Position numbers and translations under genes: made by a program | The notes under the pieces: model-generated | Databases searched by the model: none | What the model was told of the DNA's origin: nothing | What the model saw: only the letters and a program-made list of their open reading frames with translations | Part shown: positions 16,281 through 21,110 of the stretch, piece by piece | Position numbering within the stretch: the first letter of the stretch is position 1 | How the letters are laid out: each line of letters opens with the position of its first letter | DNA from: Geothrix oryzae | GTDB taxonomy: Bacteria > Acidobacteriota > Holophagae > Holophagales > Holophagaceae | Direction: 5' to 3' | Assembly: GCF_030295385.1 (NCBI RefSeq) | Contig: NZ_AP027079.1 | Span: forward strand, 3,162,001 to 3,226,000 | Length of the DNA stretch: 64,000 nucleotides

Positions 16281-16323
16281 TGGCTAAGTCTTTCTTGGCG
16301 GCGTCCTCAAGGTGGAGTTCTCC

Positions 16324-17028
16324 ATGTCTCTTTCCCGCGGCGGTTCCCTCGTGATCCTCACCGGCGCGGGCATCTCCGCGGAAAGCGGGCTGCGGACCTT
16401 CCGCGCGGCGGACGGGCTGTGGGAGAACCACCGGGTGCAGGATGTGGCCACGCCCGAGGCCTTCCACCGGAACCCGGCCCTGGTCTACCGCTTCTACAAC
16501 GAGCGGCGGCGGAGCCTGGCGACGGTCCAGCCCAACGCCGCCCATGAGGCCCTGGCGCGGCTCGAGCGCGCGTGGCCCGGCGAGCTTCTGCTGGTCACGC
16601 AGAATGTGGACGACCTCCACGACCGGGCGGGCTCGCAGAACCTGCTGCACATGCACGGCGAGCTGCTCAAGGCCCGCTGCCTCGCCTGCCGCGCCGTGGT
16701 GGCCTGGCCCGGCGACCTGGATGCCGACGACCACTGCCCGGCCTGCCGGCGCGGCCGGCTGCGCCCCCACATCGTCTGGTTCGGCGAGATGCCCCTGGAG
16801 ATGGAGCGCATCTACCAAGCCCTGGACCGCTGCGCCCTCTTCGCCGCCATCGGCACCAGCGGCCATGTGTACCCCGCTGCGGGCTTCGTGGAGGCCGCAG
16901 CGCCCGGCGCCCGCACTGTGGAGCTCAACCTCGAGCCCAGCCTCGTGGCCGACGCCTTCCAGGAGCAGCGCGTCGGCAAGGCCACGGAGCTGGTGCCCGC
17001 CTTCGTGGCCGAGCTGCTGGGGGACTGA
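16324..17028 (+). CDS. cobB: NAD-dependent protein deacylase, Sir2 family (SIRT5-like)
   Basis: A 234-residue sirtuin that removes lysine acyl groups using NAD. Visible motifs are [16 protein letters not shown] (NAD site), [12 protein letters not shown], the catalytic His in [11 protein letters not shown], two zinc Cys pairs (CLAC, CPAC), and [12 protein letters not shown]. The Y-x-x-R of [10 protein letters not shown] marks class III sirtuins, which prefer succinyl and malonyl groups. I chose ATG 16324 because AAGGTGGAG lies just ahead; a GTG at 16312 is the longer alternative. It is the last chromosomal gene before the AT-rich cassette island. Confidence 0.92.
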
Positions 17029-17139
17029 ACCGGCGAGGGCATTCCGCAGGGCCTTGGGACCGCGAAGGGGAGGATCGAGAAAGCGGCCGTGCTTCAGGCA
17101 TTCCGTCCCTGCCTAGACTCGACGGAGGGCCGTGCCGGA

Positions 17140-17167
17140 GAGGTCCGGGTTGAGCGAAAGGTTAGGT
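17140..17167 (-). other. Half attC site at the distal end of the array
   Basis: On the minus strand ACCTAAC (17167-17161) is followed by a left inner arm CGCTCAACCCGGACC, closely matching GCTCAACTCGGACC in the next attC. No matching right arm or GTTRRRY core is found before the Sir2 gene. The site is therefore truncated or diverged where the array joins the chromosome. The stop codon of the third cassette gene lies inside the core. Confidence 0.6.
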
Positions 17168-18067
17168 AACTGCGCGTAGTCTGGATAGTAATTTGCCTAT
17201 TTGATGTAGATTTAGTCGAGGGAATAATTCTGGTTTAGGAGTGATTTTCGCTGAAAACCTATCCTCCGACCATTGGGGGTTATGGATGTTGAGATATGTC
17301 CAAAACGCCGCCAAATATTTATCCCTGGTGCAGAGACCGACACTAGTGCCAAACAACCCAGATCCGGCTGCCAAATATTCAAGAGAACGGATATCGGAAA
17401 GTGCGTTATATGCCTGTTGATGGGAATATGAGCCTTTTGGCTTGAGCACCCCACGGCCAATCCTTGGCTCGGAGCCATCTTGTGGCTCATAAAGGCATGA
17501 TAATGCTGCAAATAGAACTAAGGAGTTTTTTAGAATATTATATTTAGATGCAAGCTCTAAAATTTGACTTTCTACTCTATTTGTATTTCTTTCAGATACG
17601 CGTGCTGACAAAATTGGAGATACTTCGACCAAAAAATCGACCTCTCGCTGATGCCTCGGTGCTATTGCGGTAATGACTTCATACAATCGTGGATACTCAT
17701 CGTGGTTATGCCAAAAAACATGGGCCTCCGGTAAGCTTTTGGAAAGTAAGATGTTGGTGGAGTTGAGAGCCGTCGAAAATTCATCATAGGAAGGTATTCG
17801 GCCGTATTGGCCTTCGCTTGCTTGAATAAATGAATTTAGTTGATACCGTGAATTATTCAGATAACTAAGCCACCATCTCTCTGCCTCCAAATCCTTGCGG
17901 TCCGGCCGATTAATAAGCTTGGATATAGCTGCCGTTATACACCTATCAACCAAGATGATATTTGCAGATGAAAATGGAAGAGGCAGCCAGCCACCAAGTT
18001 GGAGGACCCAGATAACTACCGGGTGTTCTAGTTCAAGTGTGAGTTCGATAGTCGCAGTTTCGGGCAT
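17162..18067 (-). CDS. Cassette gene 3: unknown protein, possibly PIN-like
   Basis: A 301-residue protein of a family I do not recognise. An amino-terminal strand with an Asp (IILVDRCITAAISKL, near residue 38) and a late segment (NALSDIRSLEYLA ... GLCTRDKYLAAFW, near 225-265) resemble the Asp-bearing ends of PIN-type nucleases. That is only a fold guess. I start at ATG 18067, just past the attC, because a longer frame from 18175 would read through the recombination site. Its TAA stop lies inside the next attC core, as is typical of cassettes. Codon use is AT-rich, unlike the flanking genes. Confidence 0.7.
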   Translation of the reverse strand: MPETATIELTLELEHPVVIWVLQLGGWLPLPFSSANIILVDRCITAAISKLINRPDRKDLEAERWWLSYLNNSRYQLNSFIQASEGQYGRIPSYDEFSTALNSTNILLSKSLPEAHVFWHNHDEYPRLYEVITAIAPRHQREVDFLVEVSPILSARVSERNTNRVESQILELASKYNILKNSLVLFAALSCLYEPQDGSEPRIGRGVLKPKGSYSHQQAYNALSDIRSLEYLAAGSGLFGTSVGLCTRDKYLAAFWTYLNIHNPQWSEDRFSAKITPKPELFPRLNLHQIGKLLSRLRAVT

Positions 18068-18080
18068 AGGACGATGAGTC

Positions 18081-18204
18081 ACCCAACGAAAGAAGTTAAC
18101 CGGCCTCGCCTGCACCGAGGCGCTGAACAAAGCCGAGATAGCGAAATGCTGAGAGAGAGCAAAAGGCAATGCCACCCGGGTCCGAGTTGAGCAGAGGGTT
18201 AGGA
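18081..18204 (-). other. attC recombination site between cassettes 2 and 3
   Basis: On the minus strand the site runs from TCCTAAC (18204-18198) to GTTGGGT (18087-18081), 124 bp. Its inner arms GCTCAACTCGG and GAGGCCGGTTAAC and the central sequence GCTCTCTCTCAGCAT match the other full site. The stop codon of cassette gene 2 (TAA) is embedded in the first core. Confidence 0.85.
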
Positions 18205-18684
18205 GTCGATTTCAGCACTGAATATTAATGTTTGGATATCACCATAAATTGATTCATACTCAATATTCCAGGTAATTTTCGAAGTAGTTGAAAGATAATT
18301 TTTAGCCTGTTCATGTGGTATATGCAAAAGGATGACCGGTTGTTTTGTTAGGATGTAATCTCCTTTTTTGCAATTCCAAGTTGACGCCAAATCAATGACA
18401 CCCCGCGATCTAAGAGTACTTGTGAGTATGGAGATTGATGGAAAGAGAAGTTCATCCTTATCAATTTTAACTAAGAACTTCCTGATGACAGCGGGGCCTG
18501 CACCCGCATTAACTACCTGCCACTTGAATGGATGTCCTTCGAGTGAGAATCGATCTGCGTGTAAATAGGGTCGAACCGATAATTTGTTGTGACTTCTCTG
18601 AACTGCCACTTGCCACAACGAAACCACAAGCGCACAGAGAGCTACCGAGGCGGACCCCAAGGCGATGGATGCTTCTGGGCTCAT
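18199..18684 (-). CDS. Cassette gene 2: small membrane-anchored protein of unknown function
   Basis: A 161-residue protein with one amino-terminal transmembrane helix (about residues 8-27), then SHNKLSVRPYLHADRF and a beta-rich soluble domain. This layout, a helix followed by a short S-x-N-x-L-S-V-R-P-like motif, resembles single-helix proteins often carried in cassettes; I know of no assigned function. The Shine-Dalgarno sequence AGGAG lies in the recombination core just upstream (GTTAGGAG), and the stop is inside the downstream core, so the gene fills the cassette exactly. Confidence 0.8.
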   Translation of the reverse strand: MSPEASIALGSASVALCALVVSLWQVAVQRSHNKLSVRPYLHADRFSLEGHPFKWQVVNAGAGPAVIRKFLVKIDKDELLFPSISILTSTLRSRGVIDLASTWNCKKGDYILTKQPVILLHIPHEQAKNYLSTTSKITWNIEYESIYGDIQTLIFSAEIDS

Positions 18685-18691
18685 TTGAGAC

Positions 18692-18815
18692 TCCTAACGA
18701 ATGAAGCTAAGCGGCCACGCCTGCACCGAGACGATAAGCGGAGCCGAGATAGCGCAATGCTGAGAGAGAGCGGAAGGCAATGCAGGCGGGGCCCAACTTG
18801 AGCGCAAGGTTAGGC
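18692..18815 (-). other. attC recombination site between cassettes 1 and 2
   Basis: On the minus strand the site runs from GCCTAAC (18815-18809) to GTTAGGA (18698-18692), 124 bp. The arms GCCCCGCCTGCA and TGCAGGCGTGGCC can pair with one mismatch, giving the folded hairpin that integron integrases recognise. The centre carries GCTCTCTCTCAGCATTGCGCTATCTCGGCT or close variants in both full sites (18728-18780 here), so the two are members of one attC family. Confidence 0.88.
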
Positions 18816-18816
18816 G

Positions 18817-19926
18817 TTATTTGGATGATTTCATTTTGCGCAGCACACCGAGATATGTCTCGCTTTTTCCACGGTTGTCCCAGGTAGCGGCAATGTGCTC
18901 CTTGAGTGTGGGGATGTCCTTCTCAATGGTTGTTCGCCATAGATTCGCGCTGTATGGAAGAACGCGAAGGACATTATCTACATCGAAGACTCGATCAGTC
19001 CCCTCGGCATGAATAAGCGCTACGGGCTTTTCATTGGCTAGGCGCATTCCAAGTTCGAAGAGTACATTTGGGTTGTGCTCTGTTAGATCACAAATTGCCA
19101 GATCTGCATCAAGGACTTCATTCACAATTGTAGAGTGAATGATCTCGGTTCCCTGACGATTGGCGGTCCGAACTTCAAATCCTGCATCAGTAGCGGCCGG
19201 GATGATGAGGCTATTCAACACCTCCGTAAAGAATCCTTTGGAATATTTTCCGCTGCGCTCTGTGAATGGCATTATGACGAAGCACACCTGTCCGGTTTTG
19301 CGTTTGGGCTGACCGATAACTAAAGAACCAGATGGTTCCTTTGGCTTCGGTACTGATGGATCATTGCTTTCAATGAGGTCGCTTTCAGCGTATTCCGTAA
19401 GTTTCAAATATTCTGTATTTGCCCGAAAAACTTGAGAAAATTCTTCGTGTAATGCCTCAGGCAATCCAAATTGATTGCTAAGGGTATTCCCTAGGTATTT
19501 CAATTCTGGGAGTTGGCTACCTCGATAATGTTCCAGTACACGCTTGAAAACATCTACTGATAGGAATGCCTCTTTTTTAATCTGCTCTTCTTCTGCCTGA
19601 GATCCGGCGTAGGCAAGTCGGCGTCCGAGATCAGTTAAAGCAATACCTTCCGATCGAATAGTTCCGGTCGTAAGTCCAAATTGCGATGCGGCGGAGAGTA
19701 GATATACAAAATCATTATTGGTTGCTGAGAGGCCGCAATACTCAGCTACTAATGAAGGGTCGAGAGGATTACCACCATTCTTGATTTTTACGGCCGCCAT
19801 CACATTTAAAGCTCTCTCTAGTGGAACGCGAGGGTACGGCCTCCGAATTTTTTGGGTCTTCTCTGCCAACTCGGTGCGCTTACTAGCTTTCTTTGGTTTA
19901 CTCGTATTTCGCTTGGGTGTTACCAT
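18817..19926 (-). CDS. Cassette gene 1: winged-helix plus TIR/deoxyribosyltransferase-like protein
   Basis: A 369-residue protein. Residues 1-35 are basic. Residues about 35-190 look like a winged-helix regulatory region (ERALNVMAAVKIKNGGNPLD ... GIALTDLGRRLA). Residues about 215-355 form a Rossmann-like domain with CFVIMPF, AGFEVRTANRQGTEI, ADLAICDLTEHNPNVLFELG and KPVALIHAEG. The NPNVxxELG pattern with its Glu is that of nucleoside deoxyribosyltransferase-like and TIR-like domains, several of which cleave NAD in phage defence. I chose ATG 19926 for its AGGAG at good spacing; an ATG at 19986 is possible. The stop is one base before the attC core. A defence role is inference. Confidence 0.8.
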   Translation of the reverse strand: MVTPKRNTSKPKKASKRTELAEKTQKIRRPYPRVPLERALNVMAAVKIKNGGNPLDPSLVAEYCGLSATNNDFVYLLSAASQFGLTTGTIRSEGIALTDLGRRLAYAGSQAEEEQIKKEAFLSVDVFKRVLEHYRGSQLPELKYLGNTLSNQFGLPEALHEEFSQVFRANTEYLKLTEYAESDLIESNDPSVPKPKEPSGSLVIGQPKRKTGQVCFVIMPFTERSGKYSKGFFTEVLNSLIIPAATDAGFEVRTANRQGTEIIHSTIVNEVLDADLAICDLTEHNPNVLFELGMRLANEKPVALIHAEGTDRVFDVDNVLRVLPYSANLWRTTIEKDIPTLKEHIAATWDNRGKSETYLGVLRKMKSSK

Positions 19927-20126
19927 TGGGGTCTCCTGTTGTTGGTGACTGTTGGTGACGCCTATCTTTGAATTGAGCGAATCCACTCACGATCCGCCTG
20001 GGTTTCAATGAAAAATCCATCAAACCTCGAGCCCAACTCGGGAAATTTGCCCCCATCCTACCCGCGCTGGCGGGAAGGTCGAGTCAAAACGGGGTCCGGG
20101 TCGCTTTTTCGGGGGCCGGGGGCGGC

Positions 20127-21110
20127 CTAGCCCTTCAGCAGCCGCTCTTCGGCCAGGCGCAGCATGTGCTCGCAGGCGAGGACGCCATCCTGGTGGTTCA
20201 TGCGCTGGAAGTGGCTGCGCAGGTGGCGCAGGGTGCGGGGGACGGCGGGGGCGAAGTGGGCCTTGCGGCGGTGCACCAGCTGGTGGCCGAAGGTGCCCAG
20301 GGCCTTGAGGTTCCGCTGGAGGGCGCTGAGGTTCAGCTCCTCCAGGAGCGCCTCGTGGTTCCAGCCCAGCTCGTTCTGGAGGGGCCCCACCAGGAGGCGG
20401 CCGGCCTCCCGGGACCAATCCCAGTAGCCGTCGTAGAGGATGCTGGCCAGGTCGTAGGTGGCGGCGCCACGGCGGGCATCCTGGAAGTCGATCACCACCA
20501 ACCGGTCGCCGTGCACCATGAGGTTGCGCACATGGAAGTCGCGGTGGGCGAAGAAGTGGGCGCGGGTCTCCAGGCTGGCGTGGGCCTCGTCCATCATCCG
20601 TTCCAACCAGCGCGGCGGGTCCTTCTGGAGGAAGTCCTGGAAGAAGTTCTGGCGGCAGTAGTCCCACTCGAACTGGAACTTGGCCTGGTCGAAGACCCGG
20701 CCCATGAAGAAGGCGTGGGGCGGTGCGCCCAGGGTGAGGGGGCCGGCCAGGGTGGCCAGCAGCCAGCCGGCCTGCCGCGCCCAGTGCTGCTCCTCCTCGG
20801 GATGCGCCACCAGCCGGCTTTCCAGCGTGTCGTCCCCCAGGTCCTCCACCAGCAGGCAGCGGTCCTCGTCATCGCAGGCCACGATGGTGGGCACCCGCAG
20901 CACGGGATCTAAGTAAGCCTGCAGGGCCCGGAACTCGAAGTAGGAGTCGTCGCTCTTCCCCGGCGCATCCAGCGGGTGCAGCACCACCAGGGCCGTGCCC
21001 AGCTGCGGGTGGGCCGCGCGGAAGTATTGCCGCGCCCCGACATCCCCCGCCAGGGGCCGGGCATCCGACAGGCTCCAGCGGGCCAGGGCGCGGTCAAGGC
21101 GGGCATCCAT
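20127..21110 (-). CDS. Aminoglycoside phosphotransferase-fold sugar kinase, AmgK-like
   Basis: A 327-residue kinase of the APH fold. The catalytic loop is HRDFHVRNLMVH near residue 192 and the metal-binding DFQD follows near 210. The amino part has the glycine-poor nucleotide loop and an L-L-V-E-D-L-G-D hinge, as in AmgK. AmgK phosphorylates N-acetylmuramate and N-acetylglucosamine at carbon 1 for wall recycling; MurU then makes the UDP sugar. A MurU-like gene lies 1.6 kb away in the same orientation, with a serine hydrolase on the other strand between. The pairing supports the call; a different small-molecule substrate cannot be excluded. Confidence 0.75.
   Translation of the reverse strand: MDARLDRALARWSLSDARPLAGDVGARQYFRAAHPQLGTALVVLHPLDAPGKSDDSYFEFRALQAYLDPVLRVPTIVACDDEDRCLLVEDLGDDTLESRLVAHPEEEQHWARQAGWLLATLAGPLTLGAPPHAFFMGRVFDQAKFQFEWDYCRQNFFQDFLQKDPPRWLERMMDEAHASLETRAHFFAHRDFHVRNLMVHGDRLVVIDFQDARRGAATYDLASILYDGYWDWSREAGRLLVGPLQNELGWNHEALLEELNLSALQRNLKALGTFGHQLVHRRKAHFAPAVPRTLRHLRSHFQRMNHQDGVLACEHMLRLAEERLLKG

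Follow-up and report, generated by a model that had tools for sequence, protein, structure and literature searches.

An attC island in a Geothrix genome as a probable worn-out platform of a scattered chromosomal integron

The 64 kilobase (kb) stretch analysed here (hereafter the window) spans positions 3162001-3226000 of a Geothrix (Acidobacteriota) genome assembled as a single contig of 3,265,981 bases (G000 below). An integron-derived island occupies approximately positions 17122-19980 of the window, between genes for a Sir2-family deacetylase and a phosphotransferase (kinase) (Table 1). The island carries three genes, all on the minus strand, interspersed with attC sites, and its GC content is 41-52% vs approximately 66-77% in the surroundings (500-base windows). 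Open reading frames (ORFs) and GC profile agree with a first-pass annotation, made from the sequence alone, that had described three AT-rich genes on one strand. For genes 1 and 3, the start was set at a later ATG than in the tool's longest ORF.

The attC sites were sought with a covariance model trained on 36 attC sites of G000 from outside the window, the canonical attC hairpin (paired outer and inner boxes, extrahelical bases, central stem) having been written onto it by hand. Running such a model on the window was a check put forward in the first-pass annotation, and the two sites of exactly 124 bp that it had delimited were both recovered by the model, built without them, with scores of 132.1 and 108.2 bits; the third-best match in the 64 kb reaches only 10.1 bits. 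The third, half site that it had noted is the right half of an attC. The Rfam models, at gathering scores, identified three tRNAs in the window and no attC. The core pattern originally proposed, RYYYAAC/GTTRRRY, fits only partially, the actual cores being TCCTAAC/GTTAGGC and ACCCAAC/GTTAGGA. The claim that the arms of the sites can pair stands for the one at 18692-18815, which folds into an attC-like hairpin, albeit not clearly beyond shuffles (z about -1.5; 16 of 200 shuffles equally stable), and fails for the one at 18081-18204, where central stem pairs are broken and no stable fold is obtained (z 0.0 to 0.1). As a set, the 36 sites used for the model conform to the conserved attC hairpin, with R and L boxes that pair and with extrahelical bases. 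In their alignment, 93.0% of cells pair, vs 91.8% in shuffles and 20-46% with the partners slid, and the covariation score is 0.070 vs 0.051 (0 of 500 shuffles as high). Pairs changed on both sides number 4 (48 of 500 shuffles as high); further pair types are not above shuffles (257 of 500).

At the promoter-proximal end of the island, 35 bases upstream of gene 3, lies an attI-like sequence, CCTATCTTTGAATTGAGCG. Its match to the attI consensus of the resident integron (16 of 19 bases) is reached by 1 in 20000 dinucleotide shuffles of the 226-bp interval, and the runner-up in the 64 kb, both strands considered, has 12 of 19. That this sequence is a decayed attI is likely, on the strength of 19 bases. 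The island, initially drawn as far as 20037, ends at around 19961 on this side. None of the G000 matches to the integrase family TIGR02249 falls inside the window, so that the intI gene found beside the array in a complete integron is missing here. With at least two attC sites and no neighbouring integrase, the island is a cluster of attC sites lacking integron-integrases (CALIN) by the usual definition, as the first-pass annotation had labelled it.

Table 1. Features of the window and integron components elsewhere in G000.
Feature	Coordinate system	Position	Strand	Evidence and remarks
Flanking Sir2-family deacetylase gene	window	16312..17028	+	NF001755 337 bits (cut-off 318); Pfam SIR2
Truncated last attC, right half only	window	17122..17166	+	Profile positions 78-122 of 122, E 2.6e-5; 44-nt repeat family D2; overlaps gene 1 stop codon
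Cassette gene 1, 301 aa	window	17162..18067	-	ORF; no family match
attC site, partly degenerate, 124 bp	window	18081..18204	+	108.2 bits, E 8.7e-30; window + strand is the array bottom strand
Cassette gene 2, 161 aa	window	18199..18684	-	ORF; stop codon inside attC core
attC site, 124 bp	window	18692..18815	+	132.1 bits, E 6.9e-37
Cassette gene 3, 369 aa from ATG at 19926	window	18817..19926	-	ORF; weak likeness to TIR effector / nucleoside deoxyribosyltransferase in C-terminal region
Degenerate attI-like head (likely), CCTATCTTTGAATTGAGCG	window	19961..19979	+ (element reads on minus strand)	16/19 bases of resident integron's attI consensus; core GTT changed to GAT
CCCATCCTAC	window	20052..20061	+	Right of island; common to window, L056, L059, L066
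Flanking phosphotransferase (APH family) gene	window	20127..21110	-	Pfam APH E 3.3e-18; AmgK-like, NF045759 85.8 bits, far below cut-off 550
Array A	genome	beside intI (581571-582515)		35 attC; attI-type site at 284 bp from IntI, with attC another 660 bp to the left
Array B	genome	1528-1546.6 kb		intI-less
Array C	genome	2640.8-2642.3 kb		intI-less
Array E (L287)	genome	2005096-2006581	minus	Three attC matches in a row
Lone attC (L288)	genome	3245373	minus	attI-like head 16/19 at 3244379, ~1 kb away; ~18-19 kb past window end
Lone attC	genome	2321772		Head of 13/19, a level also reached by chance
Lone attC	genome	915871		attC-model match

The first-pass annotation had also suggested that the organism has or had an integron and that no integrase lies near the island. 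Both suggestions are borne out by the only G000 IntI that exceeds the cut-off (265 bits), a full-length protein scoring 465.7 bits, encoded at G000:C1:581571-582515, far from the window. Next to it, array A combines IntI, attI and an attC array in a complete integron. In G000 as a whole the attC model yields 83 matches at E ≤0.001 (weakest, 28 bits), 36 of which served to build the model and match by construction. The head of array A is CCTAACTTTGAATTGGACG; the heads of the intI-less arrays B and C are identical to it or one base off, and B has an attI-type site, an attC array and no intI within 5 kb. The attC sites of the window are 80-93% identical to those of these resident arrays. Taken with the attI-like head that the island has kept, this means that the cassettes, which the first-pass annotation derived from elsewhere through integrase action, need not be foreign. 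These comparisons provide good support for assigning the island to what would be a multi-platform system of the resident IntI. On balance, we regard the island as probably a platform, now worn out, of an integron scattered over the chromosome, in which a single IntI would serve several attI-headed arrays in trans.

Under this interpretation, an IntI with its own attI and array would also serve attI-headed arrays with no adjacent intI, excising cassettes at attC and inserting them wherever an attI is intact; arrays would in this way gain, copy and exchange cassettes in trans. Traces of such activity were sought at platform B, which was compared in G000, in a sister species (G017) and in a genome labelled as the same species as G000 (G007). 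The left flank of B is 90-92% identical among the three genomes and the right flank, where similarity resumes at the attI core, is 92-93% identical. Between these flanks, B contains 35 cassette segments in G000, 29 in G017 and 11 in G007. Of the 35 in G000, none is common to B of G017 and one to B of G007 under strict matching (one and one under relaxed matching), these counts depending on where attC sites were detected. Turnover is similar in array A, where G000 and G017 share 0 of 35 segments under strict and 2 under relaxed matching; the far end of this array, with its weak attC sites, is still common to both genomes.

Some cassettes, in turn, are found unchanged in more than one place. Arrays A and B of G000 share single-cassette units of 525 and 345 nt that are 100% identical and end at attC cores, and an identical 534-nt cassette unit is found on two intI-less platforms of G017. 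Moreover, two internal cassettes of platform B in G017 (620 and 508 nt) are repeated in reverse order near the attI head, one short unit away from it. One could imagine that pieces of the main array were moved or exchanged by homologous recombination or rearrangement, with no action of the integrase: attC repeats 80-93% identical are sufficiently alike to recombine, and exchange of whole platforms between strains could leave differing contents between conserved flanks. We consider this very improbable, since each identical block is one cassette with its ends at cores and the heads of the arrays are attI-type sites rather than cuts through arrays. The duplicated cassettes of G017 and the identical units are what would result from excision and re-insertion at attI, and not from recombination of whole platforms. 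Turnover and identical units may be read as the visible traces of integrase-dependent exchange at B.

Comparison with other genomes reveals what the chromosome looks like when B is absent. None of the ten loci fetched from relatives through the gene to the right of B contains attC. Three of them (G009, G001 and G005) have the flanks of B approximately 70-120 bp apart, representing an empty site; in G008, G014 and G002 the distance is 62 bp, with the left-flank match ending earlier, and in the other four the flanks enclose different DNA. Measured from the attI core, the right-flank match picks up again 218-230 bp further right, indicating that what was gained (or lost) comprises the cassettes and a head of approximately 220 bp.

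A comparable unit is present within arrays. We identified ten in-array copies of this ORF-less attI element, each running from its attI core as far as the core, attC or attI, that comes next; counted through the next core, nine measure 220-225 bp and one 185, with a mean pairwise identity of 0.82. In this element of about 215 bp, as in the delta-attI type of cassette, an attI-type site replaces attC between two cores, in all ten in-array copies. Several copies include a candidate promoter directed into the cassettes, recognised by consensus match only (TTGCCC or similar, 18 bases, TAAAAT). When the heads of 18 intI-less platforms (see below) were compared with the element, five matched it near full length (B in three genomes, G014 1970092 and G017 845601) and another five over about 128-156 bases. 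Among the 19 attI sites nearest IntI, 18 match only the first 27-63 bases of the element or nothing, the remaining site, in G003, being such an element itself. The full-length matches between element and heads, together with the empty site, lead us to propose that IntI moves the attI cassette to new chromosomal cores; some platforms would begin when the ORF-less cassette of about 215 bp enters a GTTAGGC-like core. Seeding of platforms in this way is a good hypothesis. The wider proposition, that one IntI maintains several attI-headed arrays and that this mobile cassette founds platforms at GTTAGGC-like chromosomal cores, is one to which we give somewhat better than even chances.

The finding at B also bears on an explanation in which the island in the window is the remnant of a complete second integron that lost its intI gene at the Sir2-kinase place. 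An attI-like head with no intI is the expected leftover of such a deletion, two other Geothrix genomes (G018 and G030) carry two IntI genes each over the cut-off, and loss of intI has been proposed as an origin of CALINs (PMC8618304). The empty site of B, on the other side, leaves space only for cassettes and about 220 bp, and among the Geothrix IntI loci none lies near the Sir2 or kinase genes of the same genome, so that no intermediate is seen. We therefore hold this scenario to be quite unlikely.

The surroundings of the island were examined in other genomes, 35 loci being searched at the Sir2-kinase place (some of them duplicates, e.g. L066 = L171, and some without the kinase gene; L075 and L082 were excluded from the gap comparison as their partial kinase matches are artefacts). 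The closest kin of the flanking Sir2 gene are from Geothrix or Holophagaceae, the best eight (81-86% identical) all being from Geothrix. In six relatives the two genes are adjacent, with gaps of -4 to 38 bp (L065, L067, L071, L076, L081 and L089). Six others have attC sites in the interval between them (L056, L059, L066/L171, L168, L169 and L178), and in further relatives the interval contains unrelated DNA. The island is hence not at the same place in all relatives, so that it withstands a check put forward in the first-pass annotation. In the sister genome G017, whose kinase and Sir2 genes are 99% and 94% identical to those of the window, the 1.1-kb interval contains different AT-rich DNA with no recognised attC, and the likeness to the right flank of the window starts at the attI-like head.

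A further possibility is that the resident IntI inserted the cassettes off target, the attG-like site used being located in the chromosome between the Sir2 and kinase genes and no attI being involved. IntI is available in the genome, convergent genes would make a harmless target, the interval varies widely among relatives, and insertion at attG genomic sites is known (PMC12901181). This explanation nonetheless appears unlikely, if less so than the previous one, given that an attI-like sequence heads the island, as one does the intI-less arrays B and C, that orthologous platforms exist, and that G017 shares sequence rightward from the head with different contents beyond it. We favour instead the interpretation of the island as a platform: the Sir2-kinase place is likely to be an old and recurrent one, decayed in G000. 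The change of the core from GTT to GAT suggests that the head is non-functional; with, in addition, one attC damaged and the last one halved, the platform has probably become fixed, leaving its three genes stranded.

Several observations weigh against these interpretations. The window head is missed by a 62-bp attI profile; it was first spotted by eye and emerges only from the 19-base comparison. At the Sir2-kinase place of other Geothrix genomes, heads score at most 14 of 19, in L056 and L168 only, and 13 of 19 also arises by chance. In G000 itself, neither array E nor the attC at 915871 has a head of at least 13 of 19 on the expected strand. As for seeding, the exact core GCCTAAC is present at the empty site of B only in G009 (G001 and G005 have GCCTAGC), and 8 of the 18 platform heads are unlike the attI element past its first part, so that for these seeding is not supported.

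Integrons are not rare in this group, contrary to the remark in the first-pass annotation that CALINs are seldom described there: of 47 Geothrix genomes, 29 carry an IntI over the cut-off, as do 115 of 395 genomes across Acidobacteriota, and an attC model for Acidobacteria has been published (PMC8352920). Heads were surveyed across the genus with the pattern CCTAACWN{3,5}TTGGRCG, which sees only sites that fit it. It yields 49 matches in 21 of the 47 Geothrix genomes, against 4 for the reversed control. An attC is present 136-747 bp upstream in all 40 matches having at least 664 bp of upstream sequence; the other nine have at most 442 bp, with no attC in that span. IntI lies within 514 bp of 21 matches and two more are in the same array, 1.6-1.8 kb off, leaving 26 without IntI downstream (i.e., none within 3 kb or within the fetched extent, which was 126 bp in one case and at least 1239 bp in others). 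Manual sorting of these 26 gave seven in-array elements, one match cut by a contig end and 18 platform heads from 13 genomes, a platform head being one that no attC or attI follows within 270 bp. Grouped by flank under strict rules, one intI-less platform recurs in six genomes, B in three and another in two. Grouping by single-linkage clustering of flanks was discarded for it lumped unrelated sites. The attC sites, attI-like heads, the empty site of B, cassette turnover and identical cassettes across platforms all emerge from comparison of genomes, and action of IntI in trans, seeding by the attI cassette and inactivity of the window site are what we infer from them.

Arrays of this type share features with several known systems. 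Like a CALIN as defined by IntegronFinder, they are clusters of attC sites with no adjacent intI; they differ in that B and C, and probably the window island, have an attI-type head and in that the contents of B change. A CALIN with its own attI is on record in Shewanella prophage M16-3 (PMC9892861), a single prophage case, whereas many species of Geothrix have several platforms in each genome, with an empty site and traces of cassette exchange. Array A resembles the sedentary chromosomal integrons of the Vibrio or Xanthomonas type, with intI, attI, about 35 attC and cassette ORFs on one strand, the difference being that the Geothrix cassette pool is split over several separate platforms. The Xanthomonas CALINs, too, are intI-less arrays found at the same chromosomal places across species, with no attI head described in the accessible text of that study (PMC12444791), according to which CALINs can be mobilised in trans. 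The unusual delta-attI cassettes of mobile integrons (PMC12901181) are cassette-like units in which an attI-type site replaces attC; they carry resistance genes and a short attI remnant, while the Geothrix element has no evident gene, measures about 215 bp and would head new platforms. Finally, attG insertion (described in PMC12901181) likewise represents entry into the chromosome at a GTT-type core that is neither attI nor attC; in Geothrix the entering unit would bring an attI along, resulting in a lasting platform. In the open-licence literature searched, the one paper listed with both integron and Geothrix concerns sewage, and no description emerged of multiple attI-headed arrays that a single integrase serves throughout a genus.

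CALINs are usually regarded as degraded integrons and, in one survey, equal complete integrons in abundance (2961 vs 2760); attI sites outside class 1 are not sought by the standard program (all from PMC9024848). If the wider proposition above holds, some arrays filed as dead CALINs would be working outposts. In Geothrix, intI-less arrays own an attI and contain cassettes that recur, unchanged, in other arrays, and one can be compared with its empty site, making the formation and lasting activity of CALINs directly testable. Lineage-specific attI heads would be the target of searches elsewhere.

The cargo of the island is poorly matched by existing families. Searches of Pfam, PADLOC, NCBIfam and PDB sequences gave nothing for gene 1; gene 2 has none in Pfam or NCBIfam and a single, marginal one in PADLOC. 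The C-terminal region of gene 3 matches a PADLOC TIR effector (E 3.6e-5) and, below its cut-off, Pfam Nuc_deoxyrib_tr (E 0.0026), with marginal matches only among PDB sequences; by these scores the protein weakly resembles TIR-like effectors. Single-sequence AlphaFold models were unusable (pLDDT 36 for gene 3 and 42 for gene 1). Another Geothrix species encodes, between its Sir2 and kinase genes, a protein 33-34% identical to that of gene 3 (L168, 9703-10173). In arrays A and B of G000, 58 of 70 segments contain an ORF of at least 79 codons, on the same strand in all 58. With 51 of the larger cassette proteins of these arrays, matches were obtained to the Shedu, Mrr, FRG, SnoaL and DinB families (one protein each) and to cupins (two proteins); defence-like families (Shedu, Mrr-type and others) are represented at L054, L011, L009, L051 and L052.

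Among the remaining components of G000, the lone attC at 3245373 and the head near it are perhaps another minimal platform. The right flank of platform C was followed in ten relatives (L277-L286), giving no attC in roughly 10 kb and no left-flank match. In G000, platform C adjoins tRNA-like genes and a gene resembling that for adenylosuccinate synthetase (L053, 2639050-2640122). A stretch similar to CCCATCCTAC is also present in G017. Besides G018 and G030, G011 has two IntI matches over the cut-off. Finally, in G032 (C1:774208-775153) IntI appears as two overlapping pieces with an in-frame stop, and is apparently broken, with attC nearby.

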